This document shows, in pieces, positions 11,795 to 31,599 of a stretch of 34,388 nt of DNA. A program made the position numbers and the translations under genes. Source of the DNA: a virus; IMG/VR virus record IMGVR_UViG_3300022074_000178, positions 1 through 34,388 of that record, one strand, 5' to 3'. Numbering within the stretch: position 1 is the stretch's first letter; each line of letters opens with the position of its first letter. The notes under the pieces were generated by a model that worked only from the letters and a program-made list of their open reading frames with translations, ran no database searches and had not been told where the DNA came from.

Positions 11795-13192
11795 ATGGCT
11801 AAAACGCAACGGCAGTTAGAGTTAGAAGCCAAAGCTAGAGCGCGATTCGCTGAGCAAAGCCTACCAGAGCGATCAGCAGGTATTGGCAATCGTGAGACGC
11901 AGTATACAGCTGCGGGCGCAATGGCTAACATTCCTGGCAGCGCTTCACAGTACGCACAAGATTTAGCGACCGTATTCACGGACCCTTTACTCGTAGCTGA
12001 GGGCGTTAAAGAGATGTTTACTGGTGACGGTCTGCAGGCTCTCGGTAATTTTTATGCTGATCGTTATGGAAGTGTGCGACAAGCACTACAGACTGCATAC
12101 GATGACCCTGTAGGTTTTATGTCGGACGTGTCTTTAGTTGGCGCTCCGCTTAAGCTCGCTGGAAACATAGCGAAGATTGCCGCCAAAACATCTCCAAAAG
12201 TACAAGCGCCGGCAGAGGCTTTACGTCGCGCTGGTGGTGCTCTGGAGTCTGCAGATCCATTAGGCGCTGCAACAGCATTAGGCTTGGGTGCGGCAACAGC
12301 AGTGCCATTGGTTAGAAGCTTCCCAGAGTCTACATACGAAACAAACCTTAAGATGGGCACAAGCCCGCGCTCTCGCATGGGCCAGCAAGGAACGCGCCAG
12401 CAGGTAATTGGCACTCTGTTAGAGGCAGGCATACCAGTTAGCCCAGAAGGGCTTACAAAGCTAAACAAGATTATCGATACACGCACAAGCGAGCTCGACC
12501 GCTTGATAGAAATGGCGGAAAAGCAAGGCAAAAGCATTTCCTTATATGAGCTAACACGGCCGATTTCAGAGCTACGTGAAGAGCTTGCAGACCCCTTTGT
12601 AAACCCAACAGCAAGAGCTGACACAGCAACGATAACTCAGTATCTGACAGATTGGTCAAAGTCCGTTGGCTCAGGCACTCAAGAATTTACGCCCTCACAA
12701 GTGCGTAAGTTACGACAAGAGCTCGATAAAAAGCTTAACTACGATCGCATAACAACAACAACACCTCCGCTACAAACCAGAATTACCGAGGAAGCAGCAG
12801 CTGGAGCACGGGGCGCATTAAGAGAAACTATAGAGGGCTACGGTCCTACTGGTATGGATATTTCTCGCTTGCTAACAGCACAGGAAGCGCTAGAGCGCGC
12901 TGTCAATAGATTAGGTCAAAACCAAACTATCGGGTTGAAGCAGACTGTGGCGGCGACAGGTGGCTTCGGCGCTATGGGTGGCACAGATATATTCCAGCAG
13001 CTATCTGGCGCATTGTTAGCTGGTGGAGCGCTGTTGATGACCCCACAGAACAAAGAGCGTATTGCTAGATTGATTTATCAATCACGAGATTTATTACCAG
13101 AGCAGCAACGCTCGCTTGTGGCTCAATTAGCTTCGCAAGCTGGACCTACGGCTCAGCGCATCGAAGAAGGACGCGAGGACGAACAGCAATGA
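11795..13192 (+). CDS. Internal virion protein with amphipathic/hydrophobic segments
   Basis: A 465-residue protein. The basic N-terminus (KTQRQLELEAKARARFAEQ) is followed by a YAQDLATVFTDPLLVAEGVKEMF region and a GSVRQALQTAYDDPVGFMSDV segment. Hydrophobic stretches at ~165-180 (ATALGLGAATAVPLV) and ~395-420 (ATGGFGAMGG...LSGALLAGGALLMTP) could insert into membranes, as expected of a protein ejected to form a DNA channel. The portal start overlaps its stop (ATGA). No lysozyme motif is visible. The assignment rests on position, length and composition. Confidence 0.55.
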   Translation: MAKTQRQLELEAKARARFAEQSLPERSAGIGNRETQYTAAGAMANIPGSASQYAQDLATVFTDPLLVAEGVKEMFTGDGLQALGNFYADRYGSVRQALQTAYDDPVGFMSDVSLVGAPLKLAGNIAKIAAKTSPKVQAPAEALRRAGGALESADPLGAATALGLGAATAVPLVRSFPESTYETNLKMGTSPRSRMGQQGTRQQVIGTLLEAGIPVSPEGLTKLNKIIDTRTSELDRLIEMAEKQGKSISLYELTRPISELREELADPFVNPTARADTATITQYLTDWSKSVGSGTQEFTPSQVRKLRQELDKKLNYDRITTTTPPLQTRITEEAAAGARGALRETIEGYGPTGMDISRLLTAQEALERAVNRLGQNQTIGLKQTVAATGGFGAMGGTDIFQQLSGALLAGGALLMTPQNKERIARLIYQSRDLLPEQQRSLVAQLASQAGPTAQRIEEGREDEQQ

Positions 13193-15282
13193 ATTTAAAG
13201 CCAATGACAGACCTAGAGATCGAAGGCATCGCACGCGAGGCTGTGCAGGACGCTGTTGATTTCTGTGAGTCCGAGATTGCTGAAGACCGAATCAAGGCGC
13301 AAAGATACTTCGATGGAGAGGTCGATATCGGTGAGGAAGACGGTCGATCAAAGGTGGTAGCTACGAAAGTTCGAGATACTATCCGTGCTATTAAGCCATC
13401 TTTAATGCGCGTGTTTCTATCTACTGACAAGCCTGTTGAATATGTTCCACGTGGAACAGAAGACGTGCAGGCTGCAGAGCAAGCTACAAAGTACATGCAC
13501 TACCAGTTTAATGAGCTAAACGGATATCGAGTGCTTAACGATGCTTTTCATGACGCCCTGGTTAAGAAGTCTGGAATTGTTAAAGTTTATTGGGACATGT
13601 ATCAAGAACAAGAGGTTTATGACTTCCAAGACCTCAACGACATGGAGTTCACCCTGCTTGTTAACGAGCCAGACGTCGAGGTTATCAAGCACACTGCCCG
13701 TACTTCTATCGAAATCGACGAGTTTGGAATGGAAATGGAGAATCCTATCCATGACCTCAAAATTTCTCGCACGATGGAACGCGGCAAGATGTGCATTGAA
13801 AGCGTGCCCCCAGAAGAGTTTTTCATTGATCGTAACTCGCGCTCTATCGATGACTATTACTGTGTTGCTCATCGTACCGAGATGCGTGTTAGTGACCTGG
13901 TGGCTATGGGCTATGATTATGAGGAAGTATATGATCTGAGTGGCTTGCAGCACTCTGACACCTTCTCAGAAGTTGAAGAGTATGAGCGCCGTGGTTACGA
14001 GTCAGATTACTCTGACGAGGACGTACAAGACCCCTCAATGCGCCTAGTTGCGATTACTGAGGCGTACATGAAGATCGACGTCGAGGGCACTGGCGTTGCG
14101 CAGATGCATAAGGTCGTCCTCGGTGGTAACAAATACAAGCTGTTAGATTACGAGACATGCTCGCACTTACCGTTCGCTGTTTTTGAGGTAGACCCAGAGC
14201 CGCACACATTCTACGGTCGGTCTGTTGCAGACCTAATCATTAATGATCAAGACGCTGCTACAGCTATGCTGCGCGGCGTTCTGGATAACGTGGCACTGAC
14301 TAACAACCCACGTGTTGAGGTAGTAGACGGCGCGGTAAACATCGATGACCTGCTAAATAATGAGATTGGCGGTGTCATCCGTGTGAAGCAGGCCGGTACA
14401 ATACAGCCGCAATCAGTTCCGTTTGTGGCAGGTCAGACTCTCGGCGCTTTGCAGTATTTCGACCAGCAGGTAGAAGACAAGACAGGCGTCACAAAAGCTT
14501 CTACAGGGCTTTCTCCTGACAGCCTACAGTCAACTACTGCTACAGCCGTAAATGCCACTGTGCAGGCTCAGGCGGCTCAGATAGAGGTCATGGCGCGCAA
14601 CCTTGCAGAAGGTGGCATGCGTCAGATGTTTAAGCTGATGCTGCAGTGCATGACGCAGAACGTAGACGAGGAGCAGATGATGCGCTTCCAAGGCAACAGC
14701 TACGTGCCTGTTGATCCCCGGTCGTGGAACAGCACGATGGATGTGTCTATTAATGTCGGCCTCGGTACAGGCAGAGAGGACCAGAAGGTAGCTGTACTCA
14801 ACCAAACGTTACAGACGCAGATTCAGATATTCCAGACGTATGGTCCGGGTAATGGCATGGTCTCTCTAACCAACATTAGAAATACCTTATCTGACATTTT
14901 GGCTATCAATGGCGTCCGAAACTCAGATCGATACTTTGCACCAATGGACCCAATGATCGAGCAGCAAATGATGCAGCAACAGCAGCAGGCACAGCAGGGT
15001 CAGCAGGCAGATCCAAACGCGGCTTACCTGCAGGCGGAGCAGATCAAGGCCCAGGCCAAGATGCAGACTGACCAATTAAAGCTACAGTTAGAGGCGCAGA
15101 AGGCTATTGCCGAAGACGACCGTAAGCGCGATGAGATGGATCAAGACCTATTGCTATCTGCGGCAGAGATTATCGGCAAGTACGGCACTGCGGTGGACGT
15201 AGAGCGCATCAAGCAGCTACAGAACGAGCCACGATATCCAGAAGCGCAGCCAGCACAAGCGGCAGTAGGTAGCACGTTTTGA
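13189..15282 (+). CDS. Portal protein, P22-like
   Basis: A 697-residue protein, close to P22 gp1 in length. The N-terminal core has RYFDGEVDIGEEDGRSKVVATKVRDTIRAIKPSLMRVFLS (residues ~43-85, given here in parts), typical of this portal family, followed by a clip/stem region including ESVPPEEFFIDRNSRS and GRSVADLIINDQD. The C-terminal ~110 residues are Gln-rich coiled coil (QQMMQQQQQAQQGQQ), like the P22 barrel. The portal forms the dodecameric DNA entry channel and docks terminase. It precedes scaffold and capsid genes in the usual order. Confidence 0.9.
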   Translation: MNLKPMTDLEIEGIAREAVQDAVDFCESEIAEDRIKAQRYFDGEVDIGEEDGRSKVVATKVRDTIRAIKPSLMRVFLSTDKPVEYVPRGTEDVQAAEQATKYMHYQFNELNGYRVLNDAFHDALVKKSGIVKVYWDMYQEQEVYDFQDLNDMEFTLLVNEPDVEVIKHTARTSIEIDEFGMEMENPIHDLKISRTMERGKMCIESVPPEEFFIDRNSRSIDDYYCVAHRTEMRVSDLVAMGYDYEEVYDLSGLQHSDTFSEVEEYERRGYESDYSDEDVQDPSMRLVAITEAYMKIDVEGTGVAQMHKVVLGGNKYKLLDYETCSHLPFAVFEVDPEPHTFYGRSVADLIINDQDAATAMLRGVLDNVALTNNPRVEVVDGAVNIDDLLNNEIGGVIRVKQAGTIQPQSVPFVAGQTLGALQYFDQQVEDKTGVTKASTGLSPDSLQSTTATAVNATVQAQAAQIEVMARNLAEGGMRQMFKLMLQCMTQNVDEEQMMRFQGNSYVPVDPRSWNSTMDVSINVGLGTGREDQKVAVLNQTLQTQIQIFQTYGPGNGMVSLTNIRNTLSDILAINGVRNSDRYFAPMDPMIEQQMMQQQQQAQQGQQADPNAAYLQAEQIKAQAKMQTDQLKLQLEAQKAIAEDDRKRDEMDQDLLLSAAEIIGKYGTAVDVERIKQLQNEPRYPEAQPAQAAVGSTF

Positions 15283-15542
15283 ACATAAAAGATCGAGCAG
15301 CGCACGTTAAGCGCCTCCAGCAAGACGAGGCATTTAACACGCTGGTAGACGAAATTAGAGAAGACGCAGCCAACGTCTTTCTAAACCCGCACTCCTCATG
15401 TCAGGACCGGGAAGAAGCGCATCACATAGTGAGAGCGTTAGCGAAGATCGAGGATCGCATGGCAGTCATCCTTACGGATGAGGCGATGTTCGACAAACAG
15501 CAAGAGCGAGGATCAGTACCGTGGATACGACTGACGAAATGA
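15279..15542 (+). CDS. Small conserved protein between portal and scaffold
   Basis: An 87-residue protein. The only early start is TTG at 15279, overlapping the portal TGA by three bases (TTGA), which suggests coupled translation. The sequence is mostly helical (RAAHVKRLQQDEAFNTLVDEIREDAANVFLNP, in part) with a conserved-looking EEAHHIVRALAKIEDRM segment. Small proteins of this pattern are common directly after portal genes in podoviruses, but their function is not known. Confidence 0.65.
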   Translation: MNIKDRAAHVKRLQQDEAFNTLVDEIREDAANVFLNPHSSCQDREEAHHIVRALAKIEDRMAVILTDEAMFDKQQERGSVPWIRLTK

Positions 15543-16483
15543 CATTCGATGGCAGCATCGAATCGGCTATAAGCCAACTGATACAACCCGAGACCGAAGA
15601 GCAACCTGAAGAAGTCGCTGAGGCGCCTGAAGAGGACTATGAGGACGAGGAGCAGGAGGTTGATGAGCCAGAACAGGATGACGAGGTAGAAGAGGACTAC
15701 GACGAGGACGCTGAGGAAGCCGATCCAGAGGAGCCTGAAACCTTTACTGTCAAAGTTGACGGTATAGAGCAGACGGTCACCCTAGAGGATCTCAAGCGAG
15801 GATACAGCGGTCAGCAATATGTCCAGCAGGGAATGCAGCAAGTTGCCGAGATGCGCAAGCAGTTTGAGCAGATTGCAGGTGATTTCCTGAATGAGCGCGA
15901 GCAAGCGAAAGCTATTTTTGCCCAAGTGCAAAACATGCAAATACCGTCAGCCCCTGTGCCACCAAACGTAGAATTAGCCGAGACTGACCCATTCCGGTAC
16001 TCAGCAGAAAAGGCTAAATACGACGTGGCGGCTAATGAATACCAGCAGAGGATCGCTGAGGTTCAGCAGGCACTAGAAGGCAATTCCCAAGCGGAGCTGC
16101 AAGCTAGGAACGCTTATTTACAAAGAGAAATGGAGACGTTGAGGCAGGCTATTCCTGACTTTGCGGACCCGCAGAAGGCCGAAGGTCTTCGCAACAATAT
16201 GTTTAAGGTAAGCCAAGATGTCTACGGGTTTGACCCGCAAGAGATCGCGGCGGTGACTGATTCGCGTGTACTCCGGGTACTGCACGACGCCATCCAATAC
16301 AGGGCGGCACAAGGCGGCAAGGAACAAGCAATCAAGAAAGCTAAGGCAAAGCCAAAGCGTACTGTTAAACCGGGTGCCAAGAAGACAGCGTCAAACCGTG
16401 ACTCTTCAAGACAAGCTAGATCGAAACTAAAACGCTCAGGCAGCATCAAAGATGCGATGAGCTTAATCCTTAATGAGAGGTAA
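15521..16483 (+). CDS. Capsid scaffolding protein
   Basis: A 320-residue protein. GTG at 15521 is chosen because CGAGGA lies eight bases upstream; an ATG at 15539 overlapping the previous stop (ATGA) is an alternative that would remove six residues. Residues ~27-76 are almost all Glu and Asp, the middle is a coiled coil with many Gln residues, and the last 50 residues are strongly basic (KPKRTVKPGAKKTASNRDSS). An acidic N-terminus, helical centre and basic C-terminus are typical of scaffolding proteins, whose basic tail binds the coat. It lies directly before the coat gene. Confidence 0.85.
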   Translation: MDTTDEMTFDGSIESAISQLIQPETEEQPEEVAEAPEEDYEDEEQEVDEPEQDDEVEEDYDEDAEEADPEEPETFTVKVDGIEQTVTLEDLKRGYSGQQYVQQGMQQVAEMRKQFEQIAGDFLNEREQAKAIFAQVQNMQIPSAPVPPNVELAETDPFRYSAEKAKYDVAANEYQQRIAEVQQALEGNSQAELQARNAYLQREMETLRQAIPDFADPQKAEGLRNNMFKVSQDVYGFDPQEIAAVTDSRVLRVLHDAIQYRAAQGGKEQAIKKAKAKPKRTVKPGAKKTASNRDSSRQARSKLKRSGSIKDAMSLILNER

Positions 16484-16489
16484 TTAACC

Positions 16490-17446
16490 ATGGCACAGCC
16501 AACCAACACTTTTGACAGCTATGATGCTGTCGGTATCCGTGAGGACTTGTCCGACGTGATCTACGATGTATCGCCGGAAGAAACGCCCTTCTACTCTAGG
16601 TGTGCAAAAGTCAAAGCGACTGCAACTTTCCACGAGTGGCAAACGGACGCTCTGCGCTCTTCAACTACCAATGCCCATATCGAGGGAGATGCGACTACTG
16701 CTGAAGCTCGCGTAGCGACTACTCGCTTAGGAAATCGAACTCAAATCTTTAAGAACGCGGTTGTCATTCCTGACACTGACGAGGGTTTGAACAAAGCGGG
16801 TCGGTCTGCTGAAATGGCGTACCAGACACTCAAGATTGCAAAAGAGCAGAAGCTCGATATCGAGAAGGCTCTTTTTGCTAACAACGCGGCAGTAACTGGC
16901 AGCGCCAGTGCGGCACGTGAGCTTGCTGGCGCTCCTGCATGGCTTATCACCAACACTAGCTTCGGTGCTAACGAAGGTGCTGACGCCACTGGTGACGGTA
17001 CTGACGCACGTACTGATGAAACCACTGCTCTGACAGCGTTTTCTCAAGCTAAGTTTGACACCGTAATGCAGTCAATCTGGGAGCAAGGTGGAAACCCTGA
17101 CTCTGTTTACCTGTCAGCTTTCCAGATGAATGTAGCTCTTGGCTTTACTGGTAACAACAACCAGCGTTCAACTATCAAAGCCGAAGATGAGCGCGTAATC
17201 AAGCACATGGATGTTTACATTACGCCCTGGGGTAGCGTTGAATTCATTCCATCGAGAGAGAATCGTTCGCGTGACGTCTTCATTATGCAAGACGATATGT
17301 GGGCTGTTGGTGTTCTTCGTCCAACCAAGAACATCGCACTCGCGAAGACTGGTGATGCGACTACACGTCAGGTTACCACTGAGCTTACTCTTGTTTGTAA
17401 GAATGAGAAGGCTTCAGGCATGATTGCTGACAACACAACGTCTTAA
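16490..17446 (+). CDS. Major capsid protein, SU10-type (HK97-fold)
   Basis: A 318-residue protein with a strong GAGAGGTAATTAACC leader. The N-terminal segment REDLSDVIYDVSPEETPFYS and HEWQTDALRS, the middle ANNAAVTG...WLITN region and the C-terminal YITPWGSVEFIPSRENRSRDVFIMQDDMW (in part) match the SU10 major capsid family (Pfam SU10_MCP/DUF5309) of podoviruses and related phages. It assembles the icosahedral head from HK97-fold subunits. A strong terminator follows its stop, which is common for the most abundant virion protein. Confidence 0.92.
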   Translation: MAQPTNTFDSYDAVGIREDLSDVIYDVSPEETPFYSRCAKVKATATFHEWQTDALRSSTTNAHIEGDATTAEARVATTRLGNRTQIFKNAVVIPDTDEGLNKAGRSAEMAYQTLKIAKEQKLDIEKALFANNAAVTGSASAARELAGAPAWLITNTSFGANEGADATGDGTDARTDETTALTAFSQAKFDTVMQSIWEQGGNPDSVYLSAFQMNVALGFTGNNNQRSTIKAEDERVIKHMDVYITPWGSVEFIPSRENRSRDVFIMQDDMWAVGVLRPTKNIALAKTGDATTRQVTTELTLVCKNEKASGMIADNTTS

Positions 17447-17461: not shown

Positions 17462-17484
17462 GGGGGCTTCGGCCCCCTTTTTTT
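17462..17484 (+). terminator. Rho-independent terminator after the capsid gene
   Basis: A 6-bp GGGGGC/GCCCCC stem (17462-17467 with 17472-17477) is closed by a TTCG tetraloop, the very stable C(UUCG)G arrangement, and is followed by seven T residues. It lies 16 bases after the capsid stop and ends right before the next ATG. Confidence 0.95.
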
Positions 17485-20881: not shown

Positions 20882-21102
20882 GTCATTCGGCGCAGATACT
20901 TAACCACTTGCGGAAGGAGCCAATAACGGCTCTGGATGCTTTGGATAAGTTTGGTTGTTTTCGGTTAGCAGCACGTATCCAAGAGCTTCGTATGCGAGGC
21001 CACAAGATACACACCGAGACAACTGTACGAAACGGCAAGCGTTACGCTACGTATCACTTGCTCAAAACAAAAACCTCTACGGAGGTAAGGGAGAAAAAAT
21101 GA
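20878..21102 (+). CDS. HTH protein, HTH_55-like
   Basis: A 74-residue protein whose ATG at 20878 overlaps the previous stop by four bases (ATGA). The sequence SHSAQILNHLRKEPITALDALDKFGCFRLAARIQELRMRG (given by position 2-41) has the winged-helix pattern of the HTH_55 family: I-x-x-HL, then ITxLDAL, F/YGCFRLAARI, ELR, followed by a KRYATYHL wing. This family is common in phage early regions and is thought to bind DNA. No target is evident from the sequence. Confidence 0.7.
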   Translation: MSHSAQILNHLRKEPITALDALDKFGCFRLAARIQELRMRGHKIHTETTVRNGKRYATYHLLKTKTSTEVREKK

Positions 21103-21377
21103 AATATTTAATTACCGTAGTTATCAGCCTATTGGCTGTACAAGCATTCGCTGACACTAAAGCCTACAAAGGCTTGAAAAATGGCGGCGAGATTGTCCTA
21201 ACGGATGACTCGTGCATTATTGCTGGCGACATGCAGCGAGCCTACTGGTACGACGGCGAGGGTAATACCGAGTCTGGCTGCTGGAAGAAGGACGGCAGGA
21301 CTATTTACTTCAAGTGGAACAATGGCGGTGAAAGTCGTTACCCACGTAAGAAGTTTAAGATCGCTAACCAGTGGTAA
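21099..21377 (+). CDS. Small exported protein of the early region
   Basis: A 92-residue protein; ATG 21099 overlaps the previous stop (ATGA) and follows GGAGGTAAGGGAG. The N-terminus MKYLITVVISLLAVQAFA is a classic Sec signal peptide, with cleavage expected after AFA at residue 18. The mature ~74-residue domain contains two Cys (CIIA, SGCW), probably a disulfide, and a beta-rich ending (GRTIYFKWNNGGESRY). Export of an early phage protein suggests an envelope role such as superinfection exclusion, but there is no homologue I can name. Confidence 0.7.
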   Translation: MKYLITVVISLLAVQAFADTKAYKGLKNGGEIVLTDDSCIIAGDMQRAYWYDGEGNTESGCWKKDGRTIYFKWNNGGESRYPRKKFKIANQW

Positions 21378-21420
21378 TTCTGTTGCCCATACATTGGGTA
21401 TCAGATTTTTCGTGATAAAC

Positions 21421-21452
21421 CGCACGTCCATATAACGGGTGTGCGCTTTTTT
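21421..21452 (+). terminator. Rho-independent terminator (+ strand)
   Basis: Left arm 21421-21429 (CGCACGTCC) pairs with 21437-21445 (GGGTGTGCG) with two G-U wobbles in RNA, loop of seven bases, then C and six T residues. It ends the first early operon, 44 bases after the exported-protein stop. Confidence 0.8.
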
Positions 21453-21459
21453 AAGGTAC

Positions 21460-21485
21460 AAAAAAAGCCCCTCAAAAGAGGGGCT
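21460..21485 (-). terminator. Rho-independent terminator (- strand)
   Basis: An 8-bp perfect stem AGCCCCTC/GAGGGGCT (21466-21473, 21478-21485) with AAAA loop. On the + strand the run of A residues precedes it; on the - strand the hairpin is followed by seven T residues, so it is a terminator for leftward transcription, although no - strand gene is otherwise evident. It could also act weakly in both directions. Confidence 0.75.
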
Positions 21486-21820
21486 ACGGGAGTCCTACTT
21501 GACTAGGGTATGTCTGAGTAGGTAGTCTCGTACTCGGCTAAGAAACAAGACAAGGGTAGTATACACTCAGTGGGACGTCTCTGGACACCCCTGGACACCT
21601 CTAGACTACTCTTGTCTCCTTCCTTAGTCAGAAATTACCGGGCGTTAGGCCGAGGAACCAAAGAACCTCGGAGGCGGAGTTGACCCTCTTCATGATGCGC
21701 CCCCTAGTGCCGAGAGCAGGTAACGGGGACAGACGACAAGATTCGATACGGTAATTACAGCTCGTCATTATTAACTAACGGATTGCTTGTCGCGTAGCGA
21801 CATCAAAAGGGAAAGTGTGG
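21486..21820. other. Structured non-coding region (possible ncRNA or replication origin)
   Basis: The longest gene-free stretch in the window, with no convincing + strand ORF. Visible structures: a 13-bp stem 21548-21560 with 21605-21617 (one G-U pair on the + strand); two direct 10-bp repeats CTGGACACC(C/T) at 21581 and 21591; a 6-bp hairpin CCGAGG/CCTCGG at 21650-21671; and a 6-bp hairpin TGTCGC/GCGACA at 21788-21802 just before the next gene. A leftward terminator bounds it at 21460. This could be a regulatory RNA, an antisense transcript, or an origin with replication signals; the replication-protein-like gene follows immediately. Confidence 0.45.
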
Positions 21821-22210
21821 ATGATTATTTTAAATGACGGTACGTACTTCGAGATAGACGATGAATACTCTATCTACCTACAGAAAAGCTACCCAGACAT
21901 AGACGTGTATCGTGAGCTCTCAGCGATGGCTGCGTGGGCTGATGCCAACCCAAAGAAACGCAAAACTCGTGCTGGATGCAAAAGATTCATAGCTGCTTGG
22001 TGTAATAAAGCAAGCAAGGAGGAGCGCGGTATAAGCCCTTTTGCAGCCCAAATACCTCATAACCAAGTTCGTGATAAAATTGGCCTTAGAGCCTGGACTA
22101 GCATAGATTGCTTAACTCACGACTTTATGAAATCCGAATCGTTTCGACAGCATTGTCTGGCTACATACGGCCAGTACATGAGCTTTGATGGAGATAGGGT
22201 AGAAGTATGA
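21821..22210 (+). CDS. Replication-protein-like small protein (C-terminal domain only)
   Basis: A 129-residue protein; ATG 21821 is preferred to GTG 21815 because AAAAGGGA is better placed. Residues ~25-70 (SYPDIDVYRELSAMAAWADAN, then KKRKTRAGCKRFIAAWCNKA) match the DnaT-like or O-type segment at the C-terminus of many phage replication initiators, which usually reads YPxxDVxxELxxMxAWLxANPxxRKTxxGxxRFIxxWL. Here it stands alone, without the DNA-binding or helicase part. It may cooperate with host DnaB loading at the adjacent non-coding region; that is inference. Confidence 0.55.
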   Translation: MIILNDGTYFEIDDEYSIYLQKSYPDIDVYRELSAMAAWADANPKKRKTRAGCKRFIAAWCNKASKEERGISPFAAQIPHNQVRDKIGLRAWTSIDCLTHDFMKSESFRQHCLATYGQYMSFDGDRVEV

Positions 22211-22608: not shown

Positions 22609-23823
22609 ATGAGTTACGGGAATGCTTACACATCAAGCCAAGCGCTTGAGATACTCGACAAAATCGACCTAACTGATAAACAACGAGAGATCGTGCAACT
22701 ATGTTGGGTTGAAGGCTCATCAATAAAAGGTGCGGCGGAGATTTTAAACGTAAATCGGCAGGCCATAAAAGATAGGCTGAGAGCTGTCGTTAAAAAGAGC
22801 GCTTTACAAGGTTATTCTCCTAAGCACGATCAGGTAAACCCGGCGCCCCCAGGTCAAATCATCAGGGGCGAGTCGATCCTTTACGATGCTGAGAATAAGC
22901 CTATTATGACGTGGGTGAAGACGCAGCAGGATGCGCAACAGCAGATAGAGGTCATGCGAGAGATTGTTAAGGGCATGACCGAGGAGATTGAGCCTGCAAA
23001 CCCCGTACAAGCCCCTCAGATTGACGCTGAGAAGCTTTGCAACTGTTTTGTGATAACTGACTACCATATGGGCATGCTGGCCGACAGCGACGAAGTGAAC
23101 GCCTCTGGTCAAACTCAGAACGATAATTGGGACTTGAAGATTGCTGAGGACACATTGGTTAAATGGTTTGCAGAGGCGATTAGGATAAGCCCGGATGCTG
23201 ACACAGCTGTTTATGCTCAACTTGGCGACTTCCAGCATTTTGATCTAGAGCCATTGACTCCGGCTTCTAAACATCTCCTTGATGCCGACTCGCGTGCTTT
23301 TAAGATTGTCAGGGCAACGATTAGAGTTACCCGGCAGGTCATTAAGATGCTGTTAGAAAAGCACAAGCACGTACACGTCAAGTGGTGTGACGCCAACCAC
23401 GATCCCTACTCTGCTATATGGATGCGCGAGCTCTTGATGGCTTTGTATGAGAACGAGCCCAGGGTGTTTATCGATAACTCTGCTGACACTTATTACTGCT
23501 ACGAGTTTGGCAAGACAGCGCTATTCTTCCATCACGGACATAAGCGTAAGGTCGCAAACGTCGATACCGTATTTGCTGCCAAGTACCGCGAGGTCTTTGG
23601 TCGTACAGAGCACGCTTACGCGCATATGGGTCATTATCACTCTATCGATAAAAAAGAGACAAACCTAATGGTTGTAGAGCAACACCGGACACTCGCAAGT
23701 GCTGATGCCTACAGTAGCCGGGGCGGTTGGCTCAGTGGTAGAGAGGCGAATGTCATCACATATCACAAAGACTATGGTCAGGTGGCGTATAATACAATCT
23801 CCTACAAGATGATTGCAGAGTGA
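22609..23823 (+). CDS. HTH domain fused to calcineurin-like metallophosphoesterase
   Basis: A 404-residue protein with a strong GGGGGGA site. Residues ~22-65 (LTDKQREIVQLCWVEGSSIK, GAAEILNVNRQAIKDRLR) form a sigma region 4-like helix-turn-helix. Residues ~145-400 are a metallophosphoesterase, with metal-binding motifs D151-x-H153, G206-D207, N263-H264-D265, H308-H309-G310-H311 and G341-H342-Y343-H344. The set D-x-H/GD/NH(D)/H/GHxH is complete. Mre11-like phosphoesterases cut DNA ends or hairpins; the HTH probably directs it to DNA. Similar fusions occur in marine phages; a role in DNA processing near the NinG gene is likely. Confidence 0.75.
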   Translation: MSYGNAYTSSQALEILDKIDLTDKQREIVQLCWVEGSSIKGAAEILNVNRQAIKDRLRAVVKKSALQGYSPKHDQVNPAPPGQIIRGESILYDAENKPIMTWVKTQQDAQQQIEVMREIVKGMTEEIEPANPVQAPQIDAEKLCNCFVITDYHMGMLADSDEVNASGQTQNDNWDLKIAEDTLVKWFAEAIRISPDADTAVYAQLGDFQHFDLEPLTPASKHLLDADSRAFKIVRATIRVTRQVIKMLLEKHKHVHVKWCDANHDPYSAIWMRELLMALYENEPRVFIDNSADTYYCYEFGKTALFFHHGHKRKVANVDTVFAAKYREVFGRTEHAYAHMGHYHSIDKKETNLMVVEQHRTLASADAYSSRGGWLSGREANVITYHKDYGQVAYNTISYKMIAE

Positions 23824-25014: not shown

Positions 25015-25233
25015 ATGTACAACGACATCAACATCCGCATCGAAAACGCTGAAGCTAACTTGATTGAAGCTCTGCGTATTGCTGGCGCTAACAACTACGC
25101 CGAAGAAGTTGCCGCCTACTACATCAATGAGAAAATTGTAAAACTGGATATGAACATCGGTCGCTACAAGTTTACTCATGGCGCATTCTTAGATGCAGAC
25201 GTTATCGAACGCGCAATCGAGCTGGCCGCATAA
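25015..25233 (+). CDS. First gene behind the second operator promoter, unknown
   Basis: A 72-residue helical protein (YNDINIRIENAEANLIEAL... YINEKIVKLDMNIGRYKF). ATG 25015 is preferred to an upstream start at 24994, as it follows ACGGGAGAGACACA, which resembles the leader of the gene at 19289. The gene has its own terminator at its end. No domain recognised; likely highly expressed early, given a regulated promoter and a terminator directly after it. Confidence 0.65.
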   Translation: MYNDINIRIENAEANLIEALRIAGANNYAEEVAAYYINEKIVKLDMNIGRYKFTHGAFLDADVIERAIELAA

Positions 25234-25245
25234 GCGGCCTTTTCT
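25224..25245 (+). terminator. Rho-independent terminator overlapping the stop codon
   Basis: GGCCGC/GCGGCC stem (25224-25229 with 25234-25239), loop ATAA containing the TAA stop of the gene at 25015, then TTTTCT. Genes downstream need read-through or another promoter. Confidence 0.75.
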
Positions 25246-26292: not shown

Positions 26293-26481
26293 ATGAAAAT
26301 ATCAAAACAAGAAATGCAAGAAGCACGCTCGCTCTATGACAAGGGTGTTGACGTGTGGTCTTTATCCGAAGCCTTCGGTGTTCACTACGACACTATGCGC
26401 AAGTACCTACGCCAGTTCGAACTATATGGTGAGTCTATGTACACACCTAATCCACAATATGTTGAGAAAACAGACGATTAG
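26293..26481 (+). CDS. Small HTH protein (resolvase/transposase-type HTH)
   Basis: A 62-residue protein. ATG 26293 after AAGGGGAT is chosen; the frame is open back to ATG 26155/26158, which would overlap the previous gene by about 28 bases and fill the otherwise empty 26184-26292. Residues ~5-40 (KQEMQEARSLYDKGVDVWSL, SEAFGVHYDTMRKYL) have the shape of an HTH in which a short helix, 'WSLSEAFGVHYDT', leads to a recognition helix. It may be another regulator of the small-gene module. Confidence 0.55.
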   Translation: MKISKQEMQEARSLYDKGVDVWSLSEAFGVHYDTMRKYLRQFELYGESMYTPNPQYVEKTDD

Positions 26482-26489
26482 AGTAAAAT
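26462..26489 (+). promoter_or_regulatory. Possible promoter before the DUF551-like gene
   Basis: TTGAGA (26462-26467) and TAAAAT (26484-26489) with a 16-base spacer, overlapping the end of the previous gene. A short CACTG/CAGTG hairpin lies just after it in the leader. Moderate evidence. Confidence 0.35.
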
Positions 26490-26729: not shown

Positions 26730-27035
26730 GTGGCAACTACAAGACGGCATAAGATACGCGCTGTTAAGGACGAAGAGAACAGACGCGCATTAAGCGTTAG
26801 GGGTAAGGCAGAATATATCTTTGATTTGATTGACGAAATCGGAGAGCTTGACCCGCAAACAGACGATCACTTCCAAGCTAAGGTACAGCAGAAGAAGACA
26901 CAGGCTGAACTACGGCTTAAGATGCTCGCTAAGACGCTACCTGACCTGAAGCAAGTAGACGCTGATCTATCTTCTAGCGATGGTTCCATGACTCCACCTA
27001 CGGTAATTGAACTTGTCGCAAAAGGTCTCGATTGA
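26730..27035 (+). CDS. Putative terminase small subunit
   Basis: A 101-residue protein. GTG 26730 has GAGGA upstream at the right spacing. It has a basic N-terminus (ATTRRHKIRAVKDEENRR), a helical core (KAEYIFDLIDEIGEL, VQQKKTQAELRLKMLAKTLP) and a C-terminal PPTVIELVAKGLD. Small terminases bind the pac site and regulate the large subunit; size, helical content and overlap with the large subunit gene (29 bases) support this, although sequence alone is not decisive. Confidence 0.6.
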   Translation: MATTRRHKIRAVKDEENRRALSVRGKAEYIFDLIDEIGELDPQTDDHFQAKVQQKKTQAELRLKMLAKTLPDLKQVDADLSSSDGSMTPPTVIELVAKGLD

Positions 27036-28293
27036 ACTACCTCCTAAACTAGCTGACCTATTCACTGGGGAGGCTAGATACCGTTGCTCATACGGTGGCC
27101 GAGGTTCTGCTAAGACACGATCCTTTGCTCTGATGACTGCTGTATGGGGTATGCGCTGGGGTGTAGCCGGTAAGCAGGGACAGATACTCTGCGCACGTGA
27201 GCACCTTAACTCTCTGGACGAGTCCTCTATGGAGGAGGTTAAGTCAGCTATACGATCTGTTCCCTGCCTGATGGACTACTACGAGATCGGTGAGCGTTAC
27301 ATACGTTCCCGGGATGGTCGCATTACGTACGTGTTCGCCGGCTTAAGGCGTAACCTGGATAGCATTAAGTCAAAGGCTCGCATCCTGCTGTGCTGGGTAG
27401 ACGAGGCCGAGACTGTTACTGAGACGGCGTGGCAGAAGCTTATACCTACTGTGCGAGAGGACGACTCTGAGATATGGGTCACGTGGAACCCTGAGAACAA
27501 GCATTCTGCTACGCATCACCGATTCCGGGTCAACATGCCAGAGCAGTGCAAGATTGTGGATATGAACTGGCGGGACAACCCGTGGTTCCCTGACGTGTTA
27601 GAGCAAGAGCGACAGGACGATCTTAAGAAGCGCCCGGATGTCTACGATCATATATGGGAAGGTGACTTCAGAATCTTTTCAGAAGGCGCTTACTACACCA
27701 ATGAAATGGCTAATGCATTGCACGAGGGTCGCATTGATCGTGTCCCATACGAGCGCTCAGTGGGCGTGGTGACGGCCTGGGACTTAGGTGTTGGTGATAG
27801 CACGGCGATCTGGTTTGCTCAGTTTGTCGGTCCAGAGGTTAGGCTGATAGATTACTACGAGAATGCCGGTGTTGGCCTCGATCACTACGCACGCATACTG
27901 CAAGAGAAAGGCTACATCTACGAGCAACACATCCTACCTCACGACGTCCGGGTACGAGAGCTCGGCAGCGGCCGGTCACGCTTAGAGGTATTGGATAACT
28001 TACGCGTAACGCCGGTATCGATAGCTCCACAACTGAACGTAGACGATGGCATCCAGGCTGTAAGGTCTCTGCTAGATCTCTGTTACTTTGACAAGGACAA
28101 GTGCGAGAAGGGCATCGACTGTTTGAGACAGTATCGCCGGCAGTATAACGAGACCATGCAGGTATGGAATGAGCGACCATTGCACGACTGGACATCACAC
28201 TGCGCAGACGCATTTAGATACCTAGCGATTGGCAGGAAAGAGTTCTCCGACTGGGGCGCGCCTATACGACGTAACCTCAAGGGCATTGTCTGA
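27007..28293 (+). CDS. terL: Terminase large subunit
   Basis: A 428-residue packaging motor. The Walker A motif GGRGSAKT is at residues 30-37 and Walker B ILLCWVDEA at 126-134, with catalytic E133. The nuclease domain starts near D259 (AWDLGVGDST), continues with DGIQAVRSLLD, and ends HDWTSHCADAFRYLAIG with D401. The order fits the Terminase_3/PBSX-type family, with usual length. The start is probably TTG 27007, which is inside the preceding gene; no ATG occurs before the P-loop. It cuts and pumps DNA through the portal at 13189. Confidence 0.93.
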   Translation: MNLSQKVSIELPPKLADLFTGEARYRCSYGGRGSAKTRSFALMTAVWGMRWGVAGKQGQILCAREHLNSLDESSMEEVKSAIRSVPCLMDYYEIGERYIRSRDGRITYVFAGLRRNLDSIKSKARILLCWVDEAETVTETAWQKLIPTVREDDSEIWVTWNPENKHSATHHRFRVNMPEQCKIVDMNWRDNPWFPDVLEQERQDDLKKRPDVYDHIWEGDFRIFSEGAYYTNEMANALHEGRIDRVPYERSVGVVTAWDLGVGDSTAIWFAQFVGPEVRLIDYYENAGVGLDHYARILQEKGYIYEQHILPHDVRVRELGSGRSRLEVLDNLRVTPVSIAPQLNVDDGIQAVRSLLDLCYFDKDKCEKGIDCLRQYRRQYNETMQVWNERPLHDWTSHCADAFRYLAIGRKEFSDWGAPIRRNLKGIV

Positions 28294-28299
28294 TATAAT
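28291..28299 (+). promoter_or_regulatory. Possible extended -10 promoter for the late operon
   Basis: TGATATAAT, an ideal extended -10 (TGnTATAAT), overlapping the terminase TGA. A start near 28306 would give a short leader containing GGAGG for the gene at 28323. No -35 is seen. The same 11-mer TGATATAATTG occurs at 8651. Confidence 0.4.
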
Positions 28300-28322
28300 T
28301 GGCCCTTCACACTGGAGGCTTC

Positions 28323-30275
28323 ATGGCAATTGGCACACGCTTACGCGGTATTCTTGATGAGTTAATCGCTACCGGGTATCCCGAGCAGGTTGCCGAGCGT
28401 ATTGCTTCTGGCGACCTACCAATGGACACCGCTTCCCGTATGCAGCGTGCCGAGGCTATGGGCTTTGATCCCGCCGACGTGCAGTATCATGGAACGTCAG
28501 ACGACATCAATGCGTTCCGCGAAGGATTGTTAGGCGAGCGCGACCCGGGTTATGTTGGTAAGGGTGTTTACACAACCCCAGAGGCAAGGCTCGCATCATC
28601 ATACGCAAACATGGCGCCGCCACGAGAAAGAAACATCGCAGGCGATTACTCAAATCCTAATGTGATGCCTTTGCTAACTAGGTCTGGCGAATATCAGCAA
28701 TTCGATCTGTCAGACAAATTAACTCTTGCTAACGAAATAAGACAAAACCCAGAAGTAGCAAGCGCTCTCACGCAAGAGTTACAAGATGCGGGAAAGATCG
28801 GCGCAGAAGTTAGAGATGCAACAGGTGCGCTAGTAGAGCGATCCACCTTTGATCCCCAAAATGTCCGCTCACTCTTTGCCGCATTCGATCCTGAGTACAC
28901 AGGTTCTAATATCCTTGGTGACCGGGCTATCCCAGTTGCCGGTGCTGGGCTATTGGCTGCAGCAGCTATGGCGCCAGAGGAGGCAGAGGCTGGCGTTATT
29001 AAGACGTTTGGCCGTGAGTTCGACCCTCGCTTTGATAAGCGTGCTTTAGAGCAAGAGAAGCTACGAGACACCACATATACGATAGAGGAGCGTGGCACGC
29101 AGGACGCACCTCGTATACCTCTGGCTGACTTAGAAGGCCGTCCATTTGTGACGACAATGTCAGATCGCACGCAGGCAGGCGGATTGCTAACAGGCATCAA
29201 TGATGTGGCGCTTGATAGGCCCATTAACCTTCAAGGCGGTCAAGGCTTTATGTTCGAGAACCCCGGTATGACATGGGCATCTGCTCCTGGCGTTGTTACG
29301 CAGATTATGAATAAAGCTGCAGAGGCGGGAGAGAACCCCATCTATATGCCTTTCCGCATGGCTCCTACAGGCGGTGATTTTGCCACTATGACCGGCGAGA
29401 CAATGCTTAGTTATGCGTCTAGCAATATGAGTAAGGCGCAGAAGAAAGAACTAGATAAGGCTGTCAAAGGCTTTGTTAGTAAAGGCGCAATGGTTAAGGG
29501 TAAGCGCGTGGGCGCCGGCCTAAAGATCAAGGACTGGAAAGGCGTCGATGATCCTCGGTCGGTAGATGCATTCCGTAACGCGCCAGACTCACTGCGCAAA
29601 GAACTTATGAACATGATCGACGTCAACTTCCGCAATAAGGGTGGGTTGAGCATTGGTCAGGCAAGGCTTGCAGTCACCGAGCCAGGCCAAGCAAATGCCT
29701 TAGACGCTCGCATACAAAACATTGGTGAGATATTTACCGACAGAGACATTATTACGGAGAGCGGTCATCCCTCATATCCTGCCGGGGTGCCCGGTCAAGG
29801 GCTAGGCCGCACCGATCAAGAGGTGAGCATATTTGAGCTTCTACCAGACGCTCGGTATGGCGAGAAGCAGAAAGCAGTGAAAGACCCGCAGAGACCTACA
29901 GCGAGAGAGATTCGCGCATTAACAATGAAGCCTTACGCAGGTCGTATTACTGAAGACATTTTGCGTGGCCTTGAAGCGCGTGGTGTAAACGTCAATGCCA
30001 ACCCATTAGCTACAGCAGCTGCAGTATCAGCAGGCGCAGAGCTAGAGGGATTGCTGTCTCAATTACCTGGGAAGGACGAAGAGGCGTACAGCTACGGCGA
30101 TATTCTGCCTATCAAGCGCGCGTTAGATCCAGAAGAGCGCGAGGGCGTCCTCGGTGGGTACAGCCCGGCGTACACAGGTATCGTTGAGGATTTAGTAGAG
30201 GGCTTGTTAACCTTCAAGACGCAGGCAGAGCAGGGTCTATACAACCCAACTGCGGCGACTGAATTCCTACTGTAA
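28323..30275 (+). CDS. ADP-ribosyltransferase-domain virion protein (polyvalent type)
   Basis: A 650-residue protein; ATG 28323 after GGAGG is preferred to TTG 28299. Residues ~50-200 look like an ADP-ribosyltransferase: YH56GTSDDINAF, GKGVY83TTPEARLASSYA, and NVRSLFAAFDPEYTGSN (180 onward), the phage polyvalent-type ART pattern (YHGT...GxYxT...RSxxAAFDP). A hydrophobic stretch AIPVAGAGLLAAAAMAPEEA follows, then a ~430-residue region with a conserved-looking FMFENPGMTWASAPGVVTQI and DRDIITESGHPSYP, as in ejected phage proteins. It may modify host proteins on entry; activity is inferred from motifs only. Confidence 0.65.
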   Translation: MAIGTRLRGILDELIATGYPEQVAERIASGDLPMDTASRMQRAEAMGFDPADVQYHGTSDDINAFREGLLGERDPGYVGKGVYTTPEARLASSYANMAPPRERNIAGDYSNPNVMPLLTRSGEYQQFDLSDKLTLANEIRQNPEVASALTQELQDAGKIGAEVRDATGALVERSTFDPQNVRSLFAAFDPEYTGSNILGDRAIPVAGAGLLAAAAMAPEEAEAGVIKTFGREFDPRFDKRALEQEKLRDTTYTIEERGTQDAPRIPLADLEGRPFVTTMSDRTQAGGLLTGINDVALDRPINLQGGQGFMFENPGMTWASAPGVVTQIMNKAAEAGENPIYMPFRMAPTGGDFATMTGETMLSYASSNMSKAQKKELDKAVKGFVSKGAMVKGKRVGAGLKIKDWKGVDDPRSVDAFRNAPDSLRKELMNMIDVNFRNKGGLSIGQARLAVTEPGQANALDARIQNIGEIFTDRDIITESGHPSYPAGVPGQGLGRTDQEVSIFELLPDARYGEKQKAVKDPQRPTAREIRALTMKPYAGRITEDILRGLEARGVNVNANPLATAAAVSAGAELEGLLSQLPGKDEEAYSYGDILPIKRALDPEEREGVLGGYSPAYTGIVEDLVEGLLTFKTQAEQGLYNPTAATEFLL

Positions 30276-30283
30276 GGTATAAT

Positions 30284-30523
30284 ATGGCTACACCACGCAA
30301 AGGAAAGGCACGAGTAAAAACCACGGCATCCGGCAGGAAGGTCTCATACGGCCAGAAGGGCGCCAAGGTTAAGCCGGGGACAAGCAAGGGCGACTCGTAC
30401 TGCGCACGCTCATTGGGAATCAAGAAGCGATTACCTAAGAGTAAGCAGAACGATCCTAACACCCCAAACAACCTGTCTAGAAAGCGCTGGAAGTGCTCAG
30501 GCGCGAAGTCGAGGAGAAAATAA
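30284..30523 (+). CDS. Basic small protein, DUF6321-like
   Basis: A 79-residue, very basic protein. The sequence TPRKGKARVKTTASGRKVSYGQKG, KPGTSKGDSYCARSLGI and LSRKRWKCS matches a small phage family that I recall as DUF6321. No signal peptide. Strong positive charge suggests nucleic-acid or capsid binding. It is the first of four consecutive basic genes. Confidence 0.65.
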   Translation: MATPRKGKARVKTTASGRKVSYGQKGAKVKPGTSKGDSYCARSLGIKKRLPKSKQNDPNTPNNLSRKRWKCSGAKSRRK

Positions 30524-30702
30524 TGGGCATGGGCGTTAAGCATTACTCGAAAGATGGCAAGGAGCATAAAGGCGGATTTCATAAAATGCCTGATGGCTCG
30601 CTACACTCTGGTAAGGCGCACACAAAATCTAGTAAGCCGCTGTTTCATTACGGCGACCTAACCCAAAAAGCAAAGCGCAAAGCGCGGGAGGGCTGGAAGT
30701 AA
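30523..30702 (+). CDS. Basic small protein, HKM/KTHTKSSK family
   Basis: A 59-residue protein; ATG 30523 overlaps the previous stop (TAATG). It reads GVKHYSKDGKEHKGGFHKMP, DGSLHSGKAHTKSSK and KAKRKAREGWK, a pattern conserved in phage proteins often encoded beside DUF6321 genes. Basic and hydrophilic; function unknown. Confidence 0.65.
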   Translation: MGMGVKHYSKDGKEHKGGFHKMPDGSLHSGKAHTKSSKPLFHYGDLTQKAKRKAREGWK

Positions 30703-30791
30703 TGCCAAATTACAAGCACAAGAAGAGAGCTCTGCCAAAGCGCGGGCAGCGCGCAGCGACCAACAAAAAAAAGCGTAAGATGAGGAAGTAG
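30702..30791 (+). CDS. Tiny basic peptide (29 aa)
   Basis: A 29-residue peptide with one-base overlap to the previous stop (TAATG), with 15 Lys/Arg residues (MPNYKHKKRALPKRGQRA and KKKRKMRK). It is too short for most gene finders; overlap coupling and the pattern of its neighbours support translation. Confidence 0.55.
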   Translation: MPNYKHKKRALPKRGQRAATNKKKRKMRK

Positions 30792-30793
30792 TC

Positions 30794-30952
30794 ATGGCAA
30801 AGCGAGGACTTTATGCAAACATTCATGCAAAGCGTAAAAGAATTAAGGCAGGCTCTGGCGAGAAAATGCGCAAGGCTGGCGAGAAAGGCGCGCCTACTGC
30901 TAAAGCGTTTAAGAAAGCGGCTAAGACCGCCAAGAAGCGGAAGACTAAATAA
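30794..30952 (+). CDS. Tiny basic protein, GLYANIHAKRKRIKAGSGE family
   Basis: A 52-residue protein: MAKRGLYANIHAKRKRIKAG, SGEKMRKAGEKGAPT, then AFKKAAKTAKKRK. This family is widespread in marine and other phages next to structural genes. Basic throughout; function unknown. Its stop overlaps the adaptor start (TAATG). Confidence 0.65.
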   Translation: MAKRGLYANIHAKRKRIKAGSGEKMRKAGEKGAPTAKAFKKAAKTAKKRKTK

Positions 30953-31599
30953 TGGCGCTGACCAATTACACTGAGCTGAAGAGCAATATAGCGGACTTCC
31001 TAAACCGAGATGACCTAACTTCGGTTATTCCTACGTTTATCGCGCTCGCAGAGGCTCAGATTAACCGTGACGTGCGGCACTGGAAGATGGAGCAACGCGC
31101 TACTGGTACGCTGAACAGCGAGTATTCCCTGCTGCCTACCGATTGGCTAGAGACGATCCAGGTCCATGTAACGGGTGACGGCACGTATCCGGTGCAGCTT
31201 GCGTCTCGTGATGCTATCGCAGACAAGCGATCAGCTAATAACGACACCTCTGGCCGGCCACGCTTTTACAGCCACGCAGACTCATCGCTAGAGTTGTACC
31301 CTACGCCAGACGCTGACTACGTCATCGAGCTTCTGTATTTCCAGAAAGTACCGGCACTAACCGACAGCGCTACGACTAACTGGCTGCTTTCAGATGCTCC
31401 CGACATTTACCTATATGCGTCACTTATCCACAGTAGCCCATACCTGCAGGAAGACGGCCGTGCAGGGACTTGGGCGCAGCTTTACAGTGCTGCGGTGCAA
31501 AAGCTTAACGAAGCGTCTGAAAAGTCTCGTATGAGTGGCTCTGGGTTGACGATGAAGGTGCGGGGTCTAGGCGGACCCAAAAGATTAGACGTTAGATGA
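30952..31599 (+). CDS. Head-tail adaptor (P22 gp4/T7 gp11-like)
   Basis: A 215-residue protein. MALTNYTELKSNIADFLNRD, IALAEAQINRDVRHWKMEQ and LPTDWLETIQVHV are typical of the phage adaptor family that plugs onto the portal, as does the later LELYPTPDADYVIELLYFQK and WLLSDAPDIYLYASL. These proteins sit between portal and nozzle in short tails. It is coupled to the next gene by ATGA. Its position ahead of the tail genes, across the junction, fits. Confidence 0.75.
   Translation: MALTNYTELKSNIADFLNRDDLTSVIPTFIALAEAQINRDVRHWKMEQRATGTLNSEYSLLPTDWLETIQVHVTGDGTYPVQLASRDAIADKRSANNDTSGRPRFYSHADSSLELYPTPDADYVIELLYFQKVPALTDSATTNWLLSDAPDIYLYASLIHSSPYLQEDGRAGTWAQLYSAAVQKLNEASEKSRMSGSGLTMKVRGLGGPKRLDVR

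Follow-up and report, generated by a model that had tools for sequence, protein, structure and literature searches.

Phage lambda encodes OOP, a short leftward RNA located downstream of an HTH regulator gene, and the CII-dependent promoters of the same phage carry 10-bp-phased TTGC-N6 repeats at the -35 position of a leftward promoter that has no -35 element. The lambda promoter pO faces pR, and its activity lowers pR transcription and affects replication (PMC3985674). The alphaproteobacterial ar14/cuckoo sRNAs are composed of three hairpins with unpaired anti-Shine-Dalgarno motifs and with stems that are very different in sequence (PMC10746234). The put antiterminator RNA of phage HK022 is about 70 nt long, consists of two stem-loops and occurs in two copies per genome (PMC9378689); an antiterminator of this type needs no dedicated protein to suppress termination. 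These four systems are the points of reference for the locus described below.

The window analysed here, a stretch of 34,388 nucleotides, comes from a linear IMG/VR virus record (IMGVR_UViG_3300022074_000178) with podovirus-like gene content, including a portal (13189-15282), a gene with head-tail-adaptor similarity, a major capsid protein (16490-17446) and a terminase (27007-28293). The capsid protein shares 75.5% identity with its counterpart in Octadecabacter Antarctic DB virus 2, which suggests a Rhodobacterales host. A gap of 437 nt (21378-21814) separates an ORF (20955-21377) from the GTG at 21815. The original prediction had described it as a structured non-coding stretch, and the gap is indeed real, non-coding and under strong selection; coding through the element was rejected by single-base indels and by stop codons that interrupt each of the three + frames in 80 of 87 relatives. 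Terminator-like sites are enriched in the region, with eight found by the scan against 2.6 +/- 1.6 in shuffles. On balance, the gap is considered to be a two-RNA control region, and we infer that it holds a + strand leader and a minus-strand small RNA.

Relatives were searched for with the 131-aa gene downstream of the gap as the query, which yielded 16 viral contigs; the same non-coding region was present in every one of them with sufficient upstream sequence, even with a different first gene. Further relatives were obtained using two conserved patterns and one gapped pattern. The element is carried by at least 128 loci on distinct IMG/VR contigs, the relatives being all metagenomic, and 87 distinct sequences were aligned for the + strand RNA; these are related and partly recombinant, so that the counts given here refer to sequences and not to independent events. 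Searches by blastn of cultured phages (INPHARED) and plasmids (PLSDB) returned merely terminator-like or chance matches, and a pattern search of the GTDB genome contigs gave no element but two chance matches, L133 and L134, in which the core is absent and the covariance model finds nothing. The element is likewise absent, also by the covariance model, from Octadecabacter Antarctic DB virus 2, the closest cultured phage as judged by the capsid. Neither the + nor the minus strand RNA matched an Rfam 15 family at the gathering cut-off, with sub-threshold matches only, and no known RNA family, tRNA or tmRNA was found. As far as the Rfam and open-literature searches reach, the + strand RNA is undescribed; its structure is well supported, Rfam has no entry for it, and it occurs commonly in uncultured marine phages.

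The features of the gap are given below, P1 to P5 and the pseudoknot being taken from the alignment-derived structure.

21421-21451, + strand: rightward intrinsic terminator of the upstream operon, an optional part
21459-21551, minus strand: predicted small RNA of about 93 nt with three hairpins (window fold z -5.3; relatives)
21466-21485, minus strand: H3, the terminator stem of the minus RNA
21488-21492, minus strand: unpaired CUCCC of the anti-Shine-Dalgarno type, between H2 and H3
21494-21522, minus strand: hairpin H2, from the fold and the relatives
21499-21528, + strand: predicted promoter, TTGACT-18-TAGTCT, with similar ones in relatives
21525-21551, minus strand: hairpin H1, its 3' arm complementary to the -10 of the + promoter
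21548-21560/21605-21617, + strand: helix P0
21558-21563, minus strand: -10 of the minus promoter, TATACT on that strand, with matching hexamers in relatives
21573-21606, no strand assigned: GGAC/AGAC repeats of 10-bp period in the -35 region of the minus promoter, possible activator sites
21627-21767, + strand: conserved structured RNA core (alignment of 87, covariation, covariance model)
21633-21640/21749-21756, + strand: helix P1
21641-21644/21698-21701, + strand: helix P2
21650-21655/21666-21671, + strand: helix P3
21676-21679/21688-21691, + strand: helix P4
21702-21711/21719-21728, + strand: helix P5
21714-21717/21760-21763, + strand: pseudoknot
21788-21802, + strand: hairpin P6, upstream of the ribosome-binding site, with covariation
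21805-21811, + strand: AAAAGGG, conserved in relatives, after P6; in the window it is the ribosome-binding site of the first gene
21815-22210, + strand: first gene, encoding a 131-aa replisome-organizer-like protein (weak tblastn similarity)

The individual parts described originally were recovered. The opposed terminators are both present (rightward 21421-21445, leftward 21485-21466), and the 13-bp stem is exact, including one G-U, and recurs in relatives with a different sequence as P0, the arms of which pair better in their native combination (-12.9 kcal/mol) than when swapped (-8.1 kcal/mol). The CCGAGG/CCTCGG stem corresponds to P3 and the TGTCGC/GCGACA stem (21788-21793/21797-21802) to P6 (the GTCGC hairpin), and both covary. 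The twin CTGGACACC repeats lie at 21581 and 21591 with a period of 10 and are clade-specific. The covariation check that had been proposed was strongly positive, but mainly for a second RNA, on the + strand, that had not been described as a unit.

This + strand leader is about 285 nt long and contains a core of 139 nt (21627-21767) with five helices and a pseudoknot. Two-sided changes were observed at 21 of the 34 core pairs in the 87-sequence alignment. The core cells are paired in 98.6% of cases as compared to 88.4% in shuffles; on four of the five measures none of 500 shuffles came up to the alignment, on the fifth (pair types) one did, and pairing falls to 32-44% when the partners are slid. 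As the structure was derived from the same sequences, these counts lean towards it; the two-sided changes are independent of this derivation. P1 occurs as ATTACYG/CRGTAAT, TATATCG/CGGTATA, TATGCTG/CAGCATA, ACTAACG/CGTTAGT and others, while P2 is invariant and hence offers no covariation evidence. In the pseudoknot, the P5 loop (GAGAGC) pairs with a downstream GCUC, with exchanges from A-U to U-G in eight sequences and from C-G to U-A in one. The arm pairs of P6 differ widely (GTCGC/GCGAC, CGGAG/CTCCG, TGTCC/GGACA, GTTAC/GTAAC and more). The conserved GUCAAG strand was also weighed as a partner for the P4 loop, but this pairing showed no covariation and was dropped.

Wobble pairs are G-U on the + strand, in 87 of 87 sequences at columns 95/107 and in 14-33 sequences at other columns, and would be A-C on the other strand, which identifies the + strand RNA as the structured molecule. 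By comparison of the relatives, the predicted product is a + strand-specific RNA with the helices P0-P6 and the pseudoknot, which ends at the ribosome-binding site that serves the first gene of the replication operon. The evidence for the leader is comparative, its whole-length single-sequence fold being unexceptional (z = -1.3). The covariance model, for which E-values are rough, finds one copy per searched locus and one in the window. The core shows about 85% nucleotide identity, against 34-56% mean amino-acid identity for the neighbouring proteins on the same contigs; with the RNA far more conserved than the surrounding proteins, the function of the leader is probably central to infection.

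Upstream of the core, comparison of the relatives establishes that promoter-like sequences face each other. Rightward, a -35 with at least four of six matches is found in 58 of the 87 relatives, the others carrying TTGCAC, TTGTAC or TTGCGT at three of six; the -10 of the window (TAGTCT) is weak, and a generic promoter scan of the region did not report the predicted + promoter. Leftward, a -10 (TATACT, TATAAT, TAAACT or TACACT) is found at the corresponding position everywhere except in the eight-member L020-type clade, in which neither promoter was recognised, and several clades have a TTG-type -35 at 16-17 bp, such as TTGTAG-17-TATACT in L125. The clade of L038, L020, L050 and L145 has a different region upstream of the core, with a possible short ORF (M..ERGV-like).

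In the clade of the window, 10-bp-phased GGAC repeats replace the minus -35; similar phased repeats were read in relatives, though not in all. A predicted minus promoter that lacks a -35 and has 10-bp-phased direct repeats there is reminiscent of the CII-dependent promoters; however, the repeat is GTCC-N6 on the minus strand rather than TTGC-N6, and it is missing from some relatives. In its arrangement, the gap comes closest to lambda pR/pO, with a leftward promoter facing a rightward early promoter just upstream of a replication gene. The locus resembles OOP, at the sequence level only, in that a short predicted leftward RNA faces an early promoter upstream of a replication gene. Unlike OOP, this RNA is not antisense to the 3' end of the upstream regulator gene but ends at the upstream stop codon without overlap, with its terminator stem at or after that codon; it has three hairpins with anti-Shine-Dalgarno motifs, and a large conserved structured leader follows.

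The leftward terminator after the upstream gene is kept in 82 of the 87 relatives and the rightward one in only 12. It had been argued that a leftward terminator makes sense only if transcription passes leftward through it, and comparison gives good support to a minus-strand RNA, the terminator closing an RNA of 72-102 nt among the relatives, with a conserved -10 and three hairpins. The terminator is the 3' end of the predicted small RNA. Comparison demonstrates that the conserved leftward terminator and the minus -10 bound a predicted three-hairpin sequence with an unpaired CUCCC or CCUCC. Exactly three exterior stems were found in 74 of 74 distinct minus sequences (15% of shuffles) and the unpaired motif in 68 (16% of shuffles), with a median folding z of -4.3. 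Since the terminator had served to set the RNA end, the sequences were tested a second time after its removal; two stems were then found in 74 of 74 (38% of shuffles), the motif in 65 of 74 (12%), and the median z was -2.8. The exchanges in H1 (A-U/G-C, U-A/A-U, C-G/G-C/A-U) come with wobbles consistent with the minus strand. Hardly any consensus structure emerged when the minus RNAs were aligned globally, since their lengths vary; the evidence is therefore drawn from individual folds and their controls.

The ar14/cuckoo sRNAs provide the closest precedent for this anatomy, the three hairpins being seen in all 74 sequences. They differ in that an ultraconserved CCUCCUCCC is unpaired in each of their hairpins, whereas CUCCC/CCUCC is usually found at one or two places in the minus RNA, which is phage-encoded and faces a promoter. 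Membership of ar14 was excluded by the exact motif and by the Rfam scores, the ar14 model (RF02344) giving 17.2 bits against a cut-off of 58.8 (L137). The ribosome-binding site of the first gene was also considered as a pairing partner for the minus RNA, matches being seen in some clades and absent in others. The resemblance of the predicted small RNA to host anti-Shine-Dalgarno sRNAs opens to direct tests whether the phage controls translation of host or phage mRNAs.

The genes upstream of the element usually encode a phrog_11717-type protein, an SSB-like protein and HTH regulators, and those downstream are variable genes followed by the 131-aa protein, a NinB-like protein, an exonuclease and NinG. 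The label replication-protein-like given to the next gene is reasonable, with weak tblastn similarity of the 131-aa protein to a replisome organizer and weak similarity also to other phage proteins. In relatives, other genes are inserted between the leader and the 131-aa gene. Exchangeable first genes are joined at the start codon right after the leader, at 21815 in the window and in L003, L004, L014, L015, L091 and others; by eye only, one is nuclease-like and others acetyltransferase- or GIY-YIG-like. The + promoter, leader and ribosome-binding site are a constant unit ahead of exchangeable genes, and the leader marks the site of first-gene exchange.

Rightward transcription from 21499-21528 would generate a + RNA that forms the 5' leader for the replication operon and acts in cis on any gene that follows. 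A cis-acting operon leader, exerting put-like antitermination or translation control, is favoured because interchangeable first genes follow. Among these, the put-like effect is favoured because the leader stands first in the operon whichever gene comes next, to which it is indifferent; most likely, the leader would modify the elongating RNA polymerase and thereby allow read-through of the operon, with control of first-gene translation as a second choice that is nearly as likely. As with put, a nascent structured RNA, here predicted, would come first in a phage early operon, either immediately behind the promoter or a short distance from it. The present core is unlike the short, two-stem-loop put RNA in its 139 nt, its five helices and pseudoknot, and its single copy in the window.

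In favour of this reading, a terminator-like hairpin GGCCGCATAAGCGGCC followed by TTTTC (25224-25239) lies inside the replication operon, overlapping or after a stop codon, and has counterparts in about 12 relatives; the site could, however, simply be where the early operon stops, a late promoter then lying at 26462-26489. Leftward transcription would counter the + promoter by collision and by antisense pairing with about 20 nt of the 5' end of the leader, and would also yield a small RNA blocking ribosome-binding sites of host or phage mRNAs. We infer the transcription of both RNAs, the interference between the facing promoters and the functions from sequence comparison. A tentative extension is that the 139-nt pseudoknotted leader represents a new phage RNA class which, with no phage protein involved, would reprogram RNA polymerase (or ribosomes) and control a plug-in site for accessory genes, while a facing small RNA mimicking the alphaproteobacterial anti-Shine-Dalgarno sRNAs would restrain it.

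A translational switch, in which the P4 loop (ACCCU) would pair with the AAAAGGG after P6 and mask the first gene's ribosome-binding site until it is opened by a ligand, a protein or an antisense RNA, is rather doubtful, though it survives best among the alternatives. All four contigs with a variant P4 segment have AAGGTG in place of AAAGGG, which the remaining cores do not despite differing flanks, and the RNA reaches as far as the start codon; this concerted change counts against the put-like reading and in favour of translation control. It is, however, confined to one variant lineage and is essentially one evolutionary event, and gives a hint of a functional link between P4 and the post-P6 motif. 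The pairing is short (about -6 to -10 kcal/mol) and of unclear specificity, and the L020-type clade keeps AAAAGGG (AAAAAGGG) although its gene has its own ribosome-binding site further on.

A role of the + RNA as a riboswitch that senses a ligand, or as a trans-acting RNA released by processing, appears unlikely; the aptamer-like size, the pseudoknot and the many invariant unpaired bases would suit a riboswitch, but the variable first gene indicates no metabolic target, and neither an expression-platform terminator nor any terminator between the RNA and the gene is found. Least likely is a phage replication origin, named originally as the main alternative, with the inverted repeats acting as DNA, which draws on the position of the gap between recombination/SSB-like genes and a replisome-organizer-like gene, on the 10-bp-phased repeats and on the facing promoters near the lambda origin, which regulate initiation (PMC3985674), but which is not supported for the structured core, given the strand bias of the G-U wobbles (A-C on the minus strand), and is weakened by repeats that are not conserved and by genes intervening between the element and the replication gene; an origin may lie nearby in the DNA.

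Some further observations were made in the window in addition to the control region. A strong terminator (17462-17477) follows the major capsid gene and is kept in several relatives. The product of 22609-23823, an exonuclease/phosphoesterase (phrog_704), carries an N-terminal sigma-70 region 4-like HTH (PF04545, 28.8 bits, cut-off 24.1), and 28299-30275 encodes a 658-aa protein with no PHROG match and a sub-threshold Pfam match to ART-PolyVal (21.9 bits, cut-off 31.2). A strong positive AT skew (0.32) is seen in the coding stretches 15001-16000 and 30001-31000.
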